Source: Burkholderiales bacterium
Lineage (GTDB): Bacteria; Pseudomonadota; Gammaproteobacteria; Burkholderiales; Burkholderiaceae_C
Assembly (NCBI GenBank): GCA_947381415.1
Contig: CANCVB010000010.1
Coordinates: 1-64,000 of the forward strand
Direction of reading: 5' to 3'
DNA: 64,000 nucleotides
Part shown: positions 9,858 through 64,000 of the stretch, one piece after another
Layout of the letters: every line of letters starts with the position of its first letter
Position numbering within the stretch: position 1 is the stretch's first letter
The notes under the pieces: model-generated
What the model was told of the DNA's origin: nothing
The model's database searches: none
What the model saw: only the letters and a program-made list of their open reading frames with translations
Program-made: the position numbers and the translations under genes

Positions 9858-11141
9858 ATGACATCCACGCTATTTACCAATGTACGCATTTTGGATGGCT
9901 CAGGGGCCGCGCCTTACGCCGGCAGTGTTTTGGTGGAAGGTAAACGCATCAAGCACATCAGTAAATCTGCTGCGCCAATGTCTGCGGGTGATGCCATGCA
10001 AGTGGACGCTGCGGGTGCCACTCTCATGCCAGGTATGTGCGAAGCGCATACGCATTTCTCTTGGAACAATGCGGCCAATTTGGCAGGTATACAAACCATG
10101 CCTTTGGAAGAGCACGTGTTGTGGAGCGCCAAGGTTGCCAAAATCTATTTGGAAGCGGGTTGGACCTCGTGCGTTGGTGCGGCCTGCGCCAAACCGCGAC
10201 TGGATGTGGTGATTCGCAACGCCATCAACAGCGGACAGATCCCTGGTCCTCGCTACTTGGCAGCCAGCCAAGAAATCACGGTGCCTGGCGCTTTGGGGGA
10301 TGAAACCCTGCCGCACTTACCGTTTCCCGAATTCAGCTTTGGCGCCAACGTCAATGGTGCAGAAGATATGCGTAAATGTGTGCGTCAATTTTTGAAGTAT
10401 GGCGTTGATTCCATCAAACTGAATTTGTCTGGAGACAATTTCACACCCGACTCACCAGCAGAAACACATTGGATGACTGATGCCGAAGTGGCAGCCGCCA
10501 TGGAAGAGGTTCGCATGCGCGGCAAGCGAGGTGCAGCACACGCACGTTCTGGACCTTCGGTGCAACAAGCATTGCGACACGGCATAGACATCATTTACCA
10601 CGCCAGCTTTTGCGATGAAAAAACACTAGACATGCTGGAAGCAGCCAAAGATCGTGTGTTTGTTGTACCTGGCATTGGCATTGTTCACGCCCTGCTCAAC
10701 GAAGCTTCCGAATGGGGTGTTACACGGGCCAAAGCAGAAAGCATGGGTTATGGCATTGAATGGGAAGCTGCGTTGAAATCTCTGTCTGCCATGCACAAGC
10801 GAGGCGTTCGTGTCATGCCGGGTGGTGACTATGGGTTTGCATTTACACCGCACGGGCAAAACGCACGTGATCTGGAATTTTTCGTGCGCTACCTCGGCTT
10901 TACGCCAATGGAAGCGATTCGTTCCTGCACCTTGTACGGCGGGCAAATCATGATGAAGCCCAATGAACTGGGTTTGGTCAAAGAAGGTTATTTGGCTGAC
11001 CTGCTGTTGGTGGATGGCGACCCCTTGACCAATTTAGCCATTTTGCGAGAGCCATCGCGGATGTTGGCCGTTATGAAGGATGGCGTGTTTGCCAAACATC
11101 CACCGACCACCCGCCAACGTGCTTGGGAGCGTGCCGCATGA
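9858..11141 (+). CDS. amidohydrolase family protein (second tandem copy)
   Basis: A 427-residue paralogue of the preceding gene, alike over its whole length and identical at all metal-ligand blocks: H64-T-H66, DSIKLNLSG, AAHARS, IIYHASF and MPGGDYGF. ATG 9858 is chosen over an in-frame codon at 9825 because AGAGGAGA lies just before it and the resulting N-terminus aligns with the first copy. Its stop overlaps the ATG of the permease gene by ATGA, tying enzyme and transporter in one transcript. Differences are concentrated in the loop after the ligand Lys and in the region after IYHASF, suggesting different substrate preference. Confidence 0.9.
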   Translation: MTSTLFTNVRILDGSGAAPYAGSVLVEGKRIKHISKSAAPMSAGDAMQVDAAGATLMPGMCEAHTHFSWNNAANLAGIQTMPLEEHVLWSAKVAKIYLEAGWTSCVGAACAKPRLDVVIRNAINSGQIPGPRYLAASQEITVPGALGDETLPHLPFPEFSFGANVNGAEDMRKCVRQFLKYGVDSIKLNLSGDNFTPDSPAETHWMTDAEVAAAMEEVRMRGKRGAAHARSGPSVQQALRHGIDIIYHASFCDEKTLDMLEAAKDRVFVVPGIGIVHALLNEASEWGVTRAKAESMGYGIEWEAALKSLSAMHKRGVRVMPGGDYGFAFTPHGQNARDLEFFVRYLGFTPMEAIRSCTLYGGQIMMKPNELGLVKEGYLADLLLVDGDPLTNLAILREPSRMLAVMKDGVFAKHPPTTRQRAWERAA

Positions 11142-55554: not shown

Positions 55555-56703
55555 TCACTCCACTTTGCTCAATTTTTTGGAATTGATACTGTCGCGAAAA
55601 ATCAAAGGCTTGATGTCCACGCGCTTTTCGTCTGGCAATTGGGCCAGCGCCAGCGCATCCTGAACCACCTGGTGATGCGGTGATTTGTCACAAACGGGAT
55701 CGGCATTCGCCGCATCGCCTGTCAGCATCAAGGCTTGGCAACGACAGCCACCCAAATCTTTTGTTTTCTCAGGACAACTGCTGCAAGGCTCTTTCATCCA
55801 AGCATCACCTCGGTAATGGTTGAATGGTTTGGACTCGTACCAAATGTCTTTCACAGACATGTTTTTCACATTTGGAAAATCCAAATGCTTAATCATCTTG
55901 GCAGTGTGACATGGCAGCGCTGTGCCATCAGGGGTGATGGTTAAAAACACATTGCCCCATCCGTTCATACATTTTTTTGGACGCGTTTCGTAATAATCGG
56001 GCACCACGAAAAAGATTTTCAGTTTGTCCCCTAATTTTTCTCGATAGGTATTCGTGATGTGCTCGGCACGAACCAGCTGCTCGCGACTCGGCATCAAACC
56101 ATCTCGGTTGAGTTGGGCCCACGAATAATATTGGCTGTTAGCCAATTCAAGGTACTCTGCACCTAAATCGACAGCCAACTCAATGATCTTGTCGATGTAG
56201 TCAATATTCAATCGATGCACAACGCAATTGAGCACCATGGGCCATCCGTTTGACTTGATCAAATCTGCGGCTTTTTGCTTTAATGCATAGGTTTTGGTGT
56301 GTGACAAAAAGTCATTCAATTCTCTGGTGGAGTCTTGAAAAGACAATTGAACATGGTCTAAACCTGCCAGCTTCAATGCCTTAGCGCGTTCTGGCGTGAA
56401 GCCAATGCCAGAGGTAAGTAAGTTGGTATAAAAACCCAGTTTATGTGCCTCTGCGACCAACTCTTCTAAATCGTCTCGCACCAAAGGTTCACCACCAGAA
56501 AAACCGCATTGAACACTGCCAGCGGCGCGCGCGTCACGCAAAACATGAATCCACTGTTGGGTCGTTAACTCTTGGCCATGTTGGGCGAAATCCACTGGGT
56601 TGTAACAAAATACACAATGCAAAGGACATGCGTAAGTGACCTCCGCCAATAACCAAAGGGGTGGCCCGACCTGGGGGGTGGCATGGTCAAGATTGGTACT
56701 CAT
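55555..56703 (-). CDS. pqqE: PQQ synthase PqqE (radical SAM)
   Basis: A 382-residue radical SAM enzyme that forms the Glu-Tyr carbon bond in PqqA. The SAM-cluster motif is C26-x3-C30-x2-C33 (CPLHCVFC), followed by GGEP, and the SPASM domain has the Cys set CMNGWGN, LPCHT, PCSSC and GGCRC. ATG 56703 overlaps the pqqD stop; an earlier in-frame start at 56715 lies inside pqqD. It is the last gene of the leftward pqqABCDE operon. Confidence 0.96.
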   Translation of the reverse strand: MSTNLDHATPQVGPPLWLLAEVTYACPLHCVFCYNPVDFAQHGQELTTQQWIHVLRDARAAGSVQCGFSGGEPLVRDDLEELVAEAHKLGFYTNLLTSGIGFTPERAKALKLAGLDHVQLSFQDSTRELNDFLSHTKTYALKQKAADLIKSNGWPMVLNCVVHRLNIDYIDKIIELAVDLGAEYLELANSQYYSWAQLNRDGLMPSREQLVRAEHITNTYREKLGDKLKIFFVVPDYYETRPKKCMNGWGNVFLTITPDGTALPCHTAKMIKHLDFPNVKNMSVKDIWYESKPFNHYRGDAWMKEPCSSCPEKTKDLGGCRCQALMLTGDAANADPVCDKSPHHQVVQDALALAQLPDEKRVDIKPLIFRDSINSKKLSKVE

Positions 56704-56978
56704 AGCTTCACCCATCCTTGTTGAATAGCGATTTCCAAGAACCCCAGCACCTCTTTTTGCAAACCAGTGGTTTCAAACTCCGTTTCCAGTTCGGTGATGA
56801 GCGCTGACATGGTTTTTTCTCCATCGAGGCGTTTCATGATCTCACCTGCACTGTTGTTGAGTTTGACCATACCCTCTGGGTAAAGCAAGACCCATGACTG
56901 TTGAACTTCTTCCCACTGCAAACGAAACATGGAAGAAACAACAGGCTTACTTGTCAGCATCGCTTCATCTGTCATCAT
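56700..56978 (-). CDS. pqqD: PQQ biosynthesis chaperone PqqD
   Basis: A 92-residue small peptide-recognition (winged-helix) protein that presents PqqA to PqqE. The pattern [24 protein letters not shown], then [11 protein letters not shown] and the C-terminal helix is typical. It starts at 56978 or 56975, the two adjacent Met codons. It overlaps both pqqC and pqqE by a few bases. Confidence 0.95.
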
Positions 56979-57736
56979 TTTTTAGGGCCGGTGATTTGAA
57001 TTTCGCACTGATCGAGCATGATCGCGTCCGCCAGCGACCATAAAACATCGAGCTTGAATTGCAGGATTTCCAAAGCGCGTTCTTGCAGCGCGCGGGTTTG
57101 ACTGAAGTAATTTAATGTAAATCCCAGTCCATGCGCCACATCTCTGCGCGCTTGCGTCAATCTGTTTTTAAAGTAAGTCAATGCGACCGCATCTACCCAA
57201 GGGTATTGTTGTGGCCAAGTATCGATTCGCTGCTGATGTATGTGCGGCGCAAACAGCTCTGTCAAACTTGAGGCAACCGCTTCTTGCCATGAGTGTCTGC
57301 GTGCGAAATTGACATAGGCATCCACTGCAAAACGGCTTGCAGGCGCTACATAGCGCAAGGACACCATGTCTTCACGGCTGAGCCCAACCGCTTGCCCTAA
57401 CTGTATCCATGCTTCAATGCCACCTTCGTCTTTGGTGCCGTTTAAATCGAATCCATCGTGGTCCAGAATGCGCAATATCCACTCACGCCGAATTTCCCTG
57501 TCATTGCAGTTGGACAAAATGGCCGCATCTTTAATTGGGATAGAAATTTGATAGTAGAAACGATTGGCCACCCATCCACGCAATTGTTCGGCAGAGAGTT
57601 TTCCCTCTGCCATCATGACGTGAAAGGGATGGTGAATGTGGTAACTCGTGCTTTTACCCCTTAGCAGTGATTCAAACTCTTCCTTGCTCCAAGGTTCACG
57701 TTGGTCATTAAAGACCTCGATAGATACATTTTTCAT
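56975..57736 (-). CDS. pqqC: pyrroloquinoline-quinone synthase PqqC
   Basis: A 253-residue helical cofactor-free oxidase that makes the last ring closure of PQQ. Signature blocks are [40 protein letters not shown] and the C-terminal region [21 protein letters not shown]. Length is normal. It overlaps pqqB and pqqD by 4 bases. Confidence 0.96.
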
Positions 57737-58647
57737 AGGTTGATAACCATTCCGTCGTAGGCCACTTCAATGCCGTGCGCAGTCAGCATTTGACGCTCAG
57801 GGCCGTTCTCATTCAAGATAGGGTTGGTGTTGTTGATGTGAATCAAAATTTTTCGAATATGGCTGGGCAATTTGTCTAACCATTCAATCATCCCGTCAGG
57901 ACCGGTTTGTGGCATGTGCCCCATACCACGAGAGGTTTTCTTTGAAGCACCTAAATCAATCATTTCATGGTCTGTCCATAAGGTGCCATCGACCAAAACA
58001 CAATCGGCTTTTTGCATGGCAGCCCACACATGGGGTTCCATTTGTCCTAACCCAGGTGCATAAAACAATGTTTTGCCTGTGCTTTCGTCGACAACACGCA
58101 AACCAATGTTGTCACCTGCTTGTGGTCGATCGCGGTGTGGGGAGTAAGGTGGTGCGTTGCTGATCAACGGGATAGCCTCAAACATCAGTTGATGCAGTTT
58201 GGGAATATGGAAGGGTTGCTGAAGCGCCAAGGAGTTCCAGTCAACGCCGCAGTAATATTCCAGCACATTGAACAGAGGATTGCCGGTTGTCAGGTCTTCT
58301 TTGACCAATGGATGGCACCACAGAGGTAAACGCCCTTTGTGTTCACGCAGCATCAAAAGCCCTGTCGTGTGGTCAATTTGGGCATCCATAAGCATGACCG
58401 CTGCGATACCTGTGTCGCGCAATGCGCGCGCAGGCTGCAAATCTGGCAGGGCTTTGAGTTGCTGAAGAATATCTGGTGAAGCGTTCACCAACAGCCACTC
58501 TTGGGCATTCGATGAAATCGCAATAGAAGACTGTGTGCGTGCTTGGTGATGTGGACTTCCTGCCCGCACAGCGCTGCATTGTGTGCAATTGCAATTCCAC
58601 TGCGGGTATCCACCGCCTGCTGCCGAGCCAACAACTTGAATTTTCAA
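57733..58647 (-). CDS. pqqB: PQQ biosynthesis protein PqqB
   Basis: A 304-residue metallo-beta-lactamase-fold protein of the pqq pathway, assigned to hydroxylation of the Tyr in the peptide. The N-terminus [13 protein letters not shown] carries the zinc-binding CNCTQC pattern, and D-H in DAQIDHTTG plus the late GHMPQTG and HINNTNP blocks give metal ligands. It is separated from pqqA by a terminator and a hairpin (58660-58730). Confidence 0.95.
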
Positions 58648-60021: not shown

Positions 60022-60666
60022 ATGACTGCGCTTAGATTGATGCTGATTGATGACCATTTGTTGGTGCGAATGGGCTTCAAAAGTTTGCTCACGACTTTTC
60101 AAGATATATCCGTCGTTGCTGAAGTTTCTTGTGGGGAAGAGGCCCTGGATGCGTACAAGCTTCACCAACCTGATATCGTGATTTCGGAAATTGACTTGCC
60201 AGGTATGGGTGGCTTGGAAACCATGAAGCGACTGTTGAGCAAACACCCCCATGCCAAGATCATTGCTCTCACTGGGCACGAAGAAATCATTTACCTCAAG
60301 CGTGTTCTTGACCTGGGTGTCTTAGGTTATCTCTCCAAAAAATCAGCGCATTCGATCTTGCATGAAGCCGTCAAAACAGTCGCGCAAAAAAAACGCTACA
60401 TCGACCCATTGCTTTCGCAAAAGTTACTTATCGATGGCTTAGATGGCAATATCGACCCCTTGAAAGACCTTTCATCCAGAGAATTTGGGGTGTTTTTACA
60501 ACTGGCCACGGGACTTCCCCTGCCCAAAGTTGCTGACCGATTGAACCTGTCCCCATCGACCATTTCTACCCACTTGGCCAGCATCAGGCAAAAGCTACAG
60601 GTCAGCAGCAACTCCGAACTTATTTTGATAGCTCGACGTCTGGGTTTAACCCATTTAAGCGATTAA
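60022..60666 (+). CDS. LuxR-type response regulator with Glu at the phosphorylation site
   Basis: A 214-residue NarL-type regulator: receiver (about 5-120) and LuxR HTH (about 150-210: SSREFGVFLQLATGLPLPKVA and NLSPSTISTHLASIRQKL). In the receiver, acidic D10/D11, T84 and K106 are in place, but the phosphoacceptor is Glu56 (ISEIDLPGMGG) instead of Asp. Regulators of this type control PQQ-dependent alcohol oxidation in other bacteria. It starts 12 bases after the peptidase gene. No histidine kinase is in the window. Confidence 0.9.
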   Translation: MTALRLMLIDDHLLVRMGFKSLLTTFQDISVVAEVSCGEEALDAYKLHQPDIVISEIDLPGMGGLETMKRLLSKHPHAKIIALTGHEEIIYLKRVLDLGVLGYLSKKSAHSILHEAVKTVAQKKRYIDPLLSQKLLIDGLDGNIDPLKDLSSREFGVFLQLATGLPLPKVADRLNLSPSTISTHLASIRQKLQVSSNSELILIARRLGLTHLSD

Positions 60667-60742: not shown

Positions 60743-61423
60743 TTGAAGTCTTTTTTTCAAAGCTTGAAAAACACAAACCCGCATTGGGAAGTCGAGCCAC
60801 TGTGGTTTGAGTGGTTGGTATTGGTGGGTTTGTTTGTCTTTGCCACTTGGCTGCTTGGCATTCAAGGGGTATGGCACTTGCTGCTCAGCTCAGACCCTAC
60901 CGGCATCACACTGGTCATCATCATTGTCTTTGGAGTTTCCACTTTATGGTGTGGTGTTCGTTCGCGAGAATTGGCGCACCAAAGAGAGTTGCTTGCCTCT
61001 GCAAGCAAAGGTAACTTGGAGACCTTGGTACTGGCCGAGGGCTGGGCTGGCGAATACTGGAATGCCTTGGCTTTGAACCCCCAAGACAGCGGAGCACCTT
61101 TGGATTTGTTGATGGAGCACACCCATGGCCCACACGCCACCGCATGGTGGGTCAATGGCGTGCAACTGAAGTTGGGACTGCTGGGCAAAGTCATTGGTTT
61201 TTCTGTGCTGGCTATGCAAATTGGTCAAATCCAAAGTTTCGATCCCTCCCAAGCCCAAGACCTGTTGCGTAACCTGACCTCTGGCTTGGGTGTGGCATTG
61301 CTGACAACCATGGTGGGTTTGGTTGGCAATATCTTGCTGGGCTTGCAACTCACCCGCATGGACCGTTTTGCCGATGACTTGGTGGCCCAAGCGCAGCGCC
61401 ATGGCATGCGCATCGCACGCTAA
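60743..61423 (+). CDS. MotA/TolQ/ExbB-like proton channel protein
   Basis: A 226-residue membrane protein starting at TTG 60743 (AAGG about 9 bases before). Two N-terminal helices (about 22-45 and 52-72) are followed by a cytoplasmic stretch and two more helices that match the ExbB/TolQ core, KLGLLGKVIGFSVLAMQI and LTSGLGVALLTTMVGLVGN, including the conserved Thr-Thr. It should pair with the ExbD-like protein encoded next to form an ion-driven unit. No TonB, TolA or MotB partner is present, so its load is unknown. Confidence 0.85.
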   Translation: MKSFFQSLKNTNPHWEVEPLWFEWLVLVGLFVFATWLLGIQGVWHLLLSSDPTGITLVIIIVFGVSTLWCGVRSRELAHQRELLASASKGNLETLVLAEGWAGEYWNALALNPQDSGAPLDLLMEHTHGPHATAWWVNGVQLKLGLLGKVIGFSVLAMQIGQIQSFDPSQAQDLLRNLTSGLGVALLTTMVGLVGNILLGLQLTRMDRFADDLVAQAQRHGMRIAR

Positions 61424-61437
61424 GCACAGCGGGTTGT

Positions 61438-62067
61438 ATGCGCAAATCTCGACATTCACGCGAACCCGAGGTTGATCCTTTTTATGACATGTTATTCAAC
61501 ATGCTCATTGCGTTTGTTTTTTGCTTCATCATTGCTTTGCTGGCCATGAACCCCAAGGCGCTGAAATCAGGTGATATTCCTGCCAAAGCGGAGTTCATCA
61601 TCACCTTATCTTGGCCCGACATGGATCCCAATGATTTGGATTTATGGGTGCAAGGTCCCTCGGGTGAAAGTGTGTGGTTTCGCAACCGTGAGGCTGACCT
61701 CATGCACCTAGACCGCGACGACCGCGGCAACAGCAACAACACCATCATGATCAACGGCAAAAAAGTGGTCAATCCTTTGCGCCAAGAAGTGGTGACGATT
61801 CGCAGCATCGTGCCAGGTGAATATGTGGTGAATGCGCATTACTACGAAACCAAAGAAATTGACCGCAATGACCCAAAGGTCGGACAACCGGTGGAAGCCA
61901 CCTTGTCAGTCATCAAAGTCAACCCTAAAGCCGAAGTTGTCTACTATGGTCAGGCCACGCTGGACAGTCGCGGCAAAGAAGTCACCATGGCACGTTTTAC
62001 AGTCACGCCCAATGGTGGTGTCGACAACATCAACACCATTCCTAAAATTCTTGTGAAGTCCTTTTGA
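61438..62067 (+). CDS. ExbD-like stator protein with YfaP-like periplasmic domain
   Basis: A 209-residue protein with a single helix (about 16-38) preceded by VDPFYDMLFNM, which matches the ExbD/TolR segment and places the conserved proton-relay Asp at 17. The rest is not an ExbD periplasmic domain: it is a beta-sandwich with NDLDLWVQGPSGE and PGEYVVNAHYYE, the pattern of the YfaP/DUF2135 family. The joined arrangement looks unusual. It is 14 bases after the channel gene and 1 base before the next. Confidence 0.78.
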   Translation: MRKSRHSREPEVDPFYDMLFNMLIAFVFCFIIALLAMNPKALKSGDIPAKAEFIITLSWPDMDPNDLDLWVQGPSGESVWFRNREADLMHLDRDDRGNSNNTIMINGKKVVNPLRQEVVTIRSIVPGEYVVNAHYYETKEIDRNDPKVGQPVEATLSVIKVNPKAEVVYYGQATLDSRGKEVTMARFTVTPNGGVDNINTIPKILVKSF

Positions 62068-62068
62068 T

Positions 62069-62566
62069 ATGACACTTACTTTTATTCTTGCCTTTGTGGC
62101 TTTTACCTTGCTGGTCACCCTGGCTTTGGTGTTTTCGCGCTGGCCGAACTGGCTAAAAGGCCTATTGGCCTTGGGCGTTGCGGGGTTTTATTTCTTTGGT
62201 TTTGGCAGTGTGCATTCTTTGCTGGGTTTGCCAAGCACCGATGCCTTGCCCGAGCGTTTTGTCATGATTGCGGCCATCGTGGATGAACCCAGAGGCAAAT
62301 TCCCTGGCGCTTTGTATATGTGGGTCACACCCATTGAAGAAGGTAAAAGTGTGATGCAACCACGTGCCTACAAATTACCCTACTCACGCGTGCTACACGA
62401 GCAAATTGCGGACGGTATGAAAAAGGGCCGTGAAGGCGTGCCTCAAATGGGCACAGCCGAAGTCAAGGCGGGCAATGGCAAAGGGCCCAGTTGGCTCAAT
62501 CCGGGCACCGATGAACAAGAGGTGAAGATTTTGGATTTGCCCACACCCCAAGTGCCTGAGAAATAA
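62069..62566 (+). CDS. membrane protein of the ExbB-like operon, unknown
   Basis: A 165-residue protein with two N-terminal helices (about 3-22 and 30-50) and a soluble domain of about 105 residues with a Pro-rich tail (PTPQVPEK). The segment MYMWVTPIEEGKSVM-like near residue 90 resembles nothing I recognise. Its position inside a four-gene unit makes it a likely structural part of the ExbB/ExbD-like complex. Confidence 0.6.
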   Translation: MTLTFILAFVAFTLLVTLALVFSRWPNWLKGLLALGVAGFYFFGFGSVHSLLGLPSTDALPERFVMIAAIVDEPRGKFPGALYMWVTPIEEGKSVMQPRAYKLPYSRVLHEQIADGMKKGREGVPQMGTAEVKAGNGKGPSWLNPGTDEQEVKILDLPTPQVPEK

Positions 62567-62568
62567 GC

Positions 62569-63288
62569 ATGCGCTACCCGTTTATTTTTCTATGCAGTAT
62601 GTTGGCACTTGCGGCTTGTGACAAGCCTTCCAACGACAACCCTTTGTTCCCTTTGGCAGAGGGCAAACGCTGGACTTACCAGATTGAAACTGTCTACGAC
62701 AACCCGGAAAGCAAAACGGTCAAACAAACCTTGGAAGTGCACAACTTAGGCAGTGCCAGTTTGGCCGATGGCTCGAACGCTTGGCTTAGACGCACGAGCA
62801 ACGGCCATGAATACTGGTTTCAAATTTCGGATCAAGGTGTGCAACGTGTGGCCATGAAGTCGCCTTTGCAAGAGCAAGCGGTGATGGACGAAGCGCCACG
62901 TCAAGTCATCTCCAACGCCATGGTTGTGGGGACCCAATGGAAGCACAACACCACGCCGTATTTCTTGCGTCGTCGCAACGAAACACCCTCAGAATTTCGC
63001 TATGTAGACAAGTTCAAAAGTATTCCCATGACTTACACCTTGGCTGCGGTGGATGAAGCCTTGGATACCCCTGCAGGTCGCTTCGAACATTGCGCACGGG
63101 TAGAAGGTCAAATGGAGTTGATGCTGTGGCATGACGACATCTATGCTTACAAACCCACCCCTTTATTGACCCGAGAGTGGTATTGCCCGGGGGTGGGACT
63201 GGCGCAGTTTGAACGTGATGAACCGACCACAGCCAAGTTTTTCCAAGGTGGTCACTTGCGTATGCGTTTGCTCGGTTTCACGCCTTAA
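62569..63288 (+). CDS. lipoprotein of the ExbB-like operon, unknown
   Basis: A 239-residue lipoprotein: signal with lipobox LAAC (Cys17), and a mature beta-rich domain starting NPLFPLAEGKRWTYQIE, a pattern seen in outer-membrane-associated lipoproteins of unknown role. It ends the four-gene unit and a terminator follows. It probably faces the periplasm at the inner or outer membrane and may be the load or anchor of the ion-driven complex. Confidence 0.65.
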   Translation: MRYPFIFLCSMLALAACDKPSNDNPLFPLAEGKRWTYQIETVYDNPESKTVKQTLEVHNLGSASLADGSNAWLRRTSNGHEYWFQISDQGVQRVAMKSPLQEQAVMDEAPRQVISNAMVVGTQWKHNTTPYFLRRRNETPSEFRYVDKFKSIPMTYTLAAVDEALDTPAGRFEHCARVEGQMELMLWHDDIYAYKPTPLLTREWYCPGVGLAQFERDEPTTAKFFQGGHLRMRLLGFTP

Positions 63289-63324: not shown

Positions 63325-63354
63325 ACACATCCAAACGCGGGTGTGTTTCTTTTT
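63325..63354 (+). terminator. intrinsic terminator after the ExbB-like operon
   Basis: An 8-bp stem (ACACATCC with GGGTGTGT, one T-G pair) and 6-nt loop, then TTCTTTTT. It separates the operon from the dehydrogenase gene. Confidence 0.7.
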
Positions 63355-63480: not shown

Positions 63481-64000
63481 ATGAAACTGTTAGTGAAATC
63501 AGTCGCGTTGGCTGCCGTTCTCGGCACAGCAACGTTGGCCAGTGCGCAAAGCTGGCCCACCTATGGTGGCGACACCGGCAACACACGCTATAGCGAAGGC
63601 ACACAAGTGACCGCCGCTAACGTGAACAAGTTGTCTGTCAAATGGGCGCTGCAACTCGGCTCCAACCGTTCACAAGAATCGTCCCCCATTTTGGTTGGCG
63701 ATACTTTGTACGTGACCTCTTCTTTCGGCCCCAAAAACGTTTTTGCTGTGAATGCAAAAACCGGTGAAATCCGTTGGAAATACTCTCCTGAGATGCCCAA
63801 AGCGATTGACCAATACGCTTGCTGTGACGTGAACAGCCGCGGTGTGGCTTACAACGACGGCAAGATCTTCTTTGGCCGCTTGGACTCTCAAGTCACTGCT
63901 CTCGACGCCAAAACCGGTAAAGAGTTGTGGACTTCCAAAGTGGTTGACTACACCCAAGGTTCTGTCATCACTTCACCCCCCACCATTGCTAAAAACCTGG
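63481..64000 (+). CDS. PQQ-dependent alcohol dehydrogenase, N-terminal part (cut by window end)
   Basis: The first 173 residues of a periplasmic quinoprotein dehydrogenase, family of methanol/ethanol dehydrogenases. The signal peptide is about 22 residues (ASAQ), the mature chain begins SWPTYGGDTGNTRYSE, and YACCDVNSRG has the vicinal Cys pair that contacts PQQ. The first propeller blades (VFAVNAKTGEIRWKYS, VTALDAKTGKELW) follow. Full length should be about 560-600. AAGGAA lies 8 bases before ATG 63481. The frame stays open to the end of the window. Whether it is an XoxF-like or Exa-like enzyme cannot be told from this part. Confidence 0.94.
   Translation, partial: MKLLVKSVALAAVLGTATLASAQSWPTYGGDTGNTRYSEGTQVTAANVNKLSVKWALQLGSNRSQESSPILVGDTLYVTSSFGPKNVFAVNAKTGEIRWKYSPEMPKAIDQYACCDVNSRGVAYNDGKIFFGRLDSQVTALDAKTGKELWTSKVVDYTQGSVITSPPTIAKNL

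Follow-up and report, generated by a model that had tools for sequence, protein, structure and literature searches.

Four adjacent genes, here called A, B, C and D, lie on the forward strand of a 64,000-nucleotide stretch of DNA (hereafter the window; contig CANCVB010000010.1, positions 1 to 64,000, of the Burkholderiales bacterium assembly GCA_947381415.1), spanning positions 60743-63288 with gaps of 14, 1 and 2 bases between A and B, B and C, and C and D, respectively. A sequence-only reading of the window had listed these genes in this order, as a single unit built around an ExbB-like channel and an ExbD-like stator. All four were confirmed as open reading frames on one strand and their linkage held across genomes, but the conserved core proved to consist of three genes (A, B and C), with D as a partner in only part of the family. 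This core is also carried by phages, which the earlier reading had missed and which is the most surprising part of the analysis.

Gene A (60743-61423; 226 residues from a TTG start) encodes a channel protein of the MotA/TolQ/ExbB family with probably four membrane segments, of which three exceed the hydropathy threshold and the fourth (with K143 and K149) was assigned from an alignment with TolQ. Although the window copy scores below the cut-off of 22.9 for the Pfam family MotA_ExbB (PF01618; 20.2 bits, expectation value (E) 5e-4), at a limit of E 10 PF01618 recognizes all 55 aligned A family members (best E 7e-12), the cut-off is exceeded by each of three phage copies that were tested, and the A profile aligns with TolQ and further family members, bearing out the ExbB-family channel of the sequence-only reading. 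The best match of A in the PDB was 8vvn (E 0.0012), a 696-residue protein with a MotA/TolQ/ExbB domain that we take to be ZorA. Because the window genome holds five MotA_ExbB genes besides A, together with four ExbD (PF02472) genes, A to D constitute an extra system.

Gene B (61438-62067; 209 residues) is predicted to encode one helix (residues 14-37) followed by a 12-strand periplasmic β-sandwich resembling YfaP/DUF2135 (mean predicted local distance difference test score (pLDDT) 91.7). The YfaP-like sandwich had been proposed from the sequence alone and was weakly borne out: 16 of the 65 B members matched DUF2135 (PF09906) weakly (best E 8.5e-4), whereas the window copy did not match it. Two long proteins found with window B or a seven-row profile (in loci L139 and L007) contain DUF2135 over the Pfam cut-off, the B match overlapping the DUF2135 stretch in L139 and stopping approximately 24 residues short of the Pfam stretch in L007. 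The domain is embedded there in frames of 1025 and 1150 residues, whereas B is a membrane-anchored, one-helix protein whose own similarity falls below the Pfam cut-off.

Gene C (62069-62566; 165 residues) encodes a two-helix membrane protein with a small α/β domain (helices at residues 2-22 and 27-51 in the predicted model; pLDDT 91.0), and gene D (62569-63288; 239 residues) encodes a DUF3108-like lipoprotein, with a lipobox (LALAAC) read by eye and DUF3108_like matched by 26 of the 29 D members (best E 2.7e-8). Both assignments agree with those of the sequence-only reading.

The three-gene core in bacteria and phages

Linkage was assessed in 130 bacterial loci picked by B only, with A, C and D called at E up to 1e-5 by hidden Markov models refined on the same loci. 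Of these loci, 80 were named contigs, 43 were stretches from class and phylum searches, 6 came from the window's own genome and its relatives, and one was a plasmid record. The named contigs were chosen as the 80 best among 417 or more relatives and so lean toward the window's clade, and at least one genome was counted twice (as L011 and L082). A was present in 128 of the 130 loci, C in 127 and D in 93, upholding the linkage of partner proteins across genomes that the earlier reading required. Of the 125 loci with all three core genes, 124 (all but L150) have them on a single strand and in A-B-C order inside 2.6 kb, an arrangement that is more than chance. A was missing from two loci, of which L021 begins at the edge of a contig, and C from three divergent ones (L149, L174 and L179), where a different small protein (cluster 85), unmatched by the C model, takes its place.

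The distribution of B is patchy: the searches found it in 7 of 250 order-level genomes (one of these being a short domain match), in 42 of 369 class genomes (including two domain matches in long frames and one fragment) and in 18 of 398 phylum genomes (including one domain match in a long frame and one short match with a stop), with two copies per genome in G367, G388, G462, G482 and G596. At L075 (Piscinibacter aquaticus), near 10001-10342, the B frame is shortened to 113 residues and D is split over two frames.

Partners of the core differed between genome groups. In one group these belong to pyrroloquinoline quinone (PQQ)-dependent oxidation (see below); in a second, the triad adjoins housekeeping genes and is joined by a vWA+FHA protein, an L,D-transpeptidase-like protein and a DUF302 lipoprotein (10 loci each), indicating that the core is constant while its partners vary. 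Genes resembling tilS, accA, dnaE and rnhB (names given by eye) adjoin vWA+FHA-type triads in the region of L142-L162. In three genomes of 1.0-1.1 Mb (L170-L172; G390, G502 and G597), A, B and a divergent C are kept and no PQQ alcohol dehydrogenase was found at E 1e-60; retention of the triad in genomes of this size suggests an important role.

Relatives of B were also detected in 125 of 157 candidate viral-contig stretches, the best 80 of which were kept and combined with two from another search to give 82 viral loci. Viral B relatives were 35-48% identical to window B (family-profile search, best 80), and 53 of the 82 sequences were distinct by a k-mer measure. In these loci, likewise picked by B, A was found in every one of the 82 and D in none of them, with C in 79 (E up to 1e-3); two of the three loci without C end at B or just past it, and all 79 loci with the complete triad showed the A-B-C order on one strand within 2.6 kb. 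Several of the loci have phage genes nearby, among them genes for a tail sheath, a tail tube, a major head protein (E 2e-161), a helicase, a T4 neck protein and DNA polymerase B; the head-protein cluster occurred in 9 and the tail-tube cluster in 12 of the 82 loci. Among named phages, 28 records matched window B, of which 27 were Rhizobium or Sinorhizobium phages (several being RefSeq copies) and the remaining one a Pectobacterium phage with a weak match (E 9e-4) inside a serine protease; A, B and C were all present in the three Rhizobium-group phages examined. Searches of PHROGs with A, B and C of one phage copy returned no family at E 0.001, and window B matched phrog_1735, a family of unknown function (2e-5).

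Two further genes recur beside viral triads. In 19 of the 82 viral loci (L187, L196, L197, L200, L206, L210, L218, L223, L227, L233, L241, L242, L244, L248, L253, L258 and L261-L263), B is followed at a distance of 2-7 genes by a member of a cluster whose representative is an SbmA/BacA-family peptide transporter (E 1.8e-132), and a trypsin-like peptidase gene lies within approximately 3 kb of the triad in all three Rhizobium-group phages (L266, L267 and L268; named from record annotation or note, and confirmed by Pfam only in L266).

Residues along the putative ion path

TolQ-TolR and ExbB-ExbD share residues for proton passage, namely D23 of TolR with T145 and T178 of TolQ, and D25 of ExbD with T148 and T181 of ExbB; T145A renders TolQ severely defective and T178A moderately so (PMC12965293, in part). 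The aspartate counterpart in B is Asp17 (codon at 61486-61488), aligned with the ExbD/TolR proton-site Asp and present in 121 of the 130 bacterial and all 82 viral loci, and the Asp-bearing helix of the sequence-only reading was thereby corroborated. Alignment of B with ExbD N-terminal segments by hhalign placed Asp17 on the ExbD Asp (one comparison; 17% probability, E 0.0015), with a bias in that the ExbD rows were chosen by a motif that includes the Asp (12 of 14 loci passed). With a true family member as its partner and Asp17 so aligned, B may be said to resemble ExbD, on likeness of sequence and setting.

The threonines gave a more divided picture. In window A, the profile alignment with TolQ placed Lys149 (codon at 61187-61189) at the first channel-threonine site (T145 in TolQ, T148 in ExbB) and Thr189 at the second, such that the threonine pair is incomplete. 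Among the 124 bacterial loci in which the Lys149 site was readable (6 of the 130 were unreadable), 80 had lysine and 44 threonine, and among the viral loci 81 of 82 had threonine. Of the 80 Lys-type loci, all kept Asp17 and 79 kept Thr189. Asp17 itself is replaced in nine bacterial loci, by valine (L177, L178 and L181-L183) or alanine (L157, L159, L161 and L162); all nine have a lysine four residues on, where the other 203 loci have asparagine in 190 cases and lysine in none.

These substitutions were traced on a tree of 96 rows, from which the Lys149 and Asp17 columns, L174, L175, L041, L029, near-duplicates and any locus missing A or C were left out; the tree was built by a quick method, with 47 of its 93 inner branches starred and some long branches. 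The change from threonine to lysine is needed once, in a supported clade of 26 rows that holds the window; loss of Asp17 takes two changes; and the split between viruses and cells takes two, with 32 of the 34 viral rows in one supported group. By parsimony, with one change from threonine to lysine and two losses of Asp17 accompanied by lysine, lysine entered the ion path three times, which may reflect a different ion, a locked complex or some other coupling. The Lys149 clade and the two Asp17-less, lysine-gaining branches are natural experiments on this path.

Gene D and the PQQ setting

Downstream of D lies the N-terminal part of a PQQ-dependent alcohol dehydrogenase (63481-64000, forward strand; TIGR03075, E 1e-50) that extends past the window and corresponds to G000:C10:63538-65064 in the whole genome, where it is over the family cut-off. 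Upstream of A lies a two-component response regulator with REC and GerE domain matches (60022-60666, forward strand), consistent with the position between a LuxR-type regulator and a PQQ dehydrogenase given by the sequence-only reading. Genes for PQQ biosynthesis occupy 55555-58647 on the reverse strand, of which PqqE (55555-56715) was confirmed (TIGR02109, 524.8 bits), whereas PqqD, PqqC and PqqB are presumptive names based on gene order; the gene called PqqB has a Lactamase_B_2 match. A second PQQ alcohol dehydrogenase (G000:C10:75123-76667) lies on the same contig, approximately 10 kb past the one adjacent to D. The terminator that the earlier reading placed at the end of the unit has a counterpart in a hairpin followed by a T-run after D (63325-63346, forward strand), but hairpins of this type are no commoner in the region than chance would give (6 found, 4.7 expected).

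Genes of PQQ-dependent oxidation recur around bacterial triads. The named contigs, most of them Burkholderiales to judge from their titles, carried the dehydrogenase cluster in 52 of 80 cases and one or more clusters of the PQQ-dehydrogenase system in 69, clusters being named from one representative each (PqqE and PqqC by sequence). For the 50 named contigs of at least 18 kb, 47 had at least one such cluster (dehydrogenase in 38, PedF in 27, relay hydrolase in 27, beta-propeller in 23, PedC in 18, binding protein in 18, SoxYZ-like in 12, PqqE in 8 and PqqC in 7). Across class genomes, a PQQ alcohol dehydrogenase was found at E 1e-60 in 28 of 40 B-positive genomes versus 36 of 329 others (Fisher p 2e-15, a value that ignores kinship; G517 and G613, with domain matches in 898- and 1150-residue frames, were left out of this count, and the 102-residue fragment of G412 was kept). 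Counted by family, 18 of 24 B-positive families hold a B-positive genome with the enzyme, and of the 17 B-positive genomes added by searching the order and the phylum, 14 carry it. The PQQ link suggested by the sequence-only reading is therefore well founded for this group. D follows the PQQ setting: in the 43 class and phylum loci, PQQ-system genes were near 7 of 9 D-positive versus 4 of 34 D-negative triads.

A link with Sox genes was judged too weak, SoxB being present in 16 of the 40 B-positive class genomes (p 1.0) and in 150 of the 369 class genomes overall. SoxB was matched in 12 of the 15 B-positive genomes without the PQQ enzyme (11 over cut-off), and among PQQ-negative class genomes in 9 of 12 B-positive versus 124 of 293 others (p 0.036). 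As a lead from the literature, MEALZ_3990/3991, annotated as MotA/TolQ/ExbB and candidate counterparts of A and B, are reported to be down-regulated together with mxaFI in a comparison of calcium against lanthanum (PMC6277846, in part).

A proposed energy-transducing complex and its alternatives

As a member of the MotA/ExbB family, A places the module within a known class of motors, which power flagella, uptake through TonB, the Tol-Pal system, gliding and Zorya (some of these described in PMC9389320). We give about even credence to the reading that A-B-C is a phage-shared variant of the MotA/ExbB energy-transducer class, tied via D to alcohol oxidation in the window's clade. On this reading, A, B and C would assemble as an inner-membrane energy-transducing complex of the MotA/TolQ/ExbB class, in which A would be the ring-forming channel and B the central helix pair (a pentamer around a dimer, if it resembles the 5:2 rotary motors), with Asp17 taking up ions and the YfaP-like sandwich extending into the periplasm, in place of an ExbD/TolR or OmpA-like domain, as the moving or gripping part; C may be an added membrane partner that tunes or anchors the complex. 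Because the aspartate and both threonines are mostly complete in phages and in bacteria beyond the window's clade, ion flow probably moves the sandwich of B there. In the window's clade, D would couple the complex to PQQ-dependent alcohol oxidation, with a task most likely in delivery or loading in the periplasm or at the outer membrane (for example, of a cofactor or metal, or in enzyme maturation), and the PQQ link would offer a candidate for a hitherto unrecognized step of alcohol oxidation that consumes energy. As Lys149 replaces one of the threonines in this clade, the drive may be altered or lost there.

Several observations weigh against this reading. The strongest is Lys149 itself, which stands at a site where alanine makes TolQ severely defective, and which, as judged from the alignment, makes an ion drive doubtful in the window's clade; the ion-driven machine of the sequence-only reading needs qualification on this account. 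To this are added the nine bacterial loci in which Asp17 is replaced. Moreover, that reading had named a lack of ExbD homology in a profile search as grounds for its own refutation, and on this point it fails, even though the Asp aligns: a search of the window genome with PF02472 gave four matches, none of them B, the ExbD family is not among the 25 (of 33) Pfam families shown for the 65 B members, and hhalign assigned the low probability given above. B was accordingly rejected as an ExbD family member, and its likeness to ExbD is kept as a working idea. Fold searches of the PDB with B and C returned nothing at E ≤0.001, which for B also counts as a contrary point. As for the PQQ association, the named loci are clade-leaning, the neighbourhood counts are without a random-locus control, and the Fisher value takes no account of kinship. 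PQQ oxidation as the function of the core was rejected, since a PQQ alcohol dehydrogenase was not found at E 1e-60 in 12 of the 40 B-positive class genomes or in 3 of the 17 further genomes, and the PQQ-system representatives, which match bacterial loci, match none of the 82 viral loci.

The main alternative, which we regard as unlikely, is that the complex of the lysine clade is a fixed scaffold or sensor, in which Lys149 pairs with Asp17 and shuts the ion path; an ion-driven ancestor would have been frozen on the window's branch and retained to fix D and the sandwich to the membrane. The presence of Lys149 in 26 of 26 rows of one supported clade through a single change on the tree, the severe defect of TolQ T145A (PMC12965293, in part) and the recurrence of lysine in the path, with nine of nine loci gaining it in the two other branches that lost Asp17, are all consistent with such a scaffold. 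A dead channel, however, would need neither Asp17 nor Thr189, kept in 80 and 79 of the 80 lysine loci, respectively, and lysine could itself accept protons.

An auxiliary energizer of the ExbB/ExbD type, serving TonB-dependent receptors that import PQQ, lanthanides or chelates for the dehydrogenases, is favoured by a gene cluster whose representative is a TonB-dependent receptor and which is present in 24 of the 130 bacterial loci; we nevertheless think it very improbable, given that B is without an ExbD domain, that A to D of the window match no Pfam TonB family with an E limit of 1 (a search for TonB confined to these four genes), that phages carry the triad and that the genome already has other MotA_ExbB and ExbD genes. 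The triad may alternatively be a module of phage-bacteria conflict, distantly Zorya-like, with which phages guard the host envelope or exclude rivals and of which bacteria kept captured copies; in favour are the carriage of triads by phages, the weak resemblance of phage A to ZorA (E 6e-7) and 8vvn, the best PDB match of A and probably ZorA. This, too, appears improbable, as no PADLOC model is matched by the tested B and C copies at E 0.01, numerous bacterial copies are found at the same metabolic or housekeeping sites again and again, and genomes of 1.0-1.1 Mb retain them.

A wider form of the energy-transducer reading can be offered only tentatively, and we would put it at somewhat below an even chance: A-B-C may be an undescribed type of envelope motor, complete in itself, driven by ions and moving through its YfaP-type part. 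Tailed phages, including T4-type and Rhizobium phages, would carry it as a standard block of genes and work the host envelope with it while infecting, bacteria would use it to serve periplasmic redox systems, and three branches would have rewired the ion path with lysine, each independently.

Comparison with known systems places the module near, but apart from, each of them. With ExbB-ExbD and TolQ-TolR it shares the Pfam family of A, an adjacent one-helix protein with an Asp before the helix core and, in phage copies and bacteria beyond the lysine clade, the threonine pair; it differs in that A probably has four membrane segments rather than the three of ExbB, B carries a YfaP-like sandwich, C is added, A to D (the only genes examined for this) include no identified TonB or TolA partner, and Lys149 is present in the window's clade. 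Four probable segments in A and a one-helix partner with an Asp are reminiscent of MotA-MotB, although the 25 Pfam families (of 33) shown for B include no OmpA-like domain, and viral A is short (median 153.5 residues over the 82 loci). The resemblance of A to ZorA of the ZorA-ZorB pair is weak, and window A has 226 residues, compared with 420-780 positions in the matched ZorA models. At E 0.01, PADLOC gave no match for the tested B and C copies or for window D, and A was weakly ZorA-like (other neighbours were not scanned). Membership in Zorya, which comprises ZorA, ZorB and effector genes, was rejected, the weak similarity of A to ZorA standing alone.

To our knowledge, no system with a B and a C of this kind has been described. 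The module was not recognized among the listed titles and abstract openings of open-licence literature on ExbB/TolQ/MotA, DUF2135/YfaP, xoxF and phages, and term searches of PMC7674155 and PMC10728633 gave nothing on it. Closest in kind are the generic ion transporters, which are non-flagellar MotA/ExbB homologues with varied extra domains; their additions, DUF3450 and DUF2341, are on A subunits, whereas a DUF2135-type B, a C partner and phage copies go unmentioned in the parts of that source covered (PMC12505986). If the triad is a further class with a different output domain, widely used by phages, it raises the question of why a phage would bring its own envelope motor.

One bacterial triad touches on phage carriage from the other side: L180 (G788:C38:9900-29800) is divergent and lies amid genes that appear phage-like by eye, perhaps in a prophage, and the named phages that its B matches are Rhizobium and Sinorhizobium phages.

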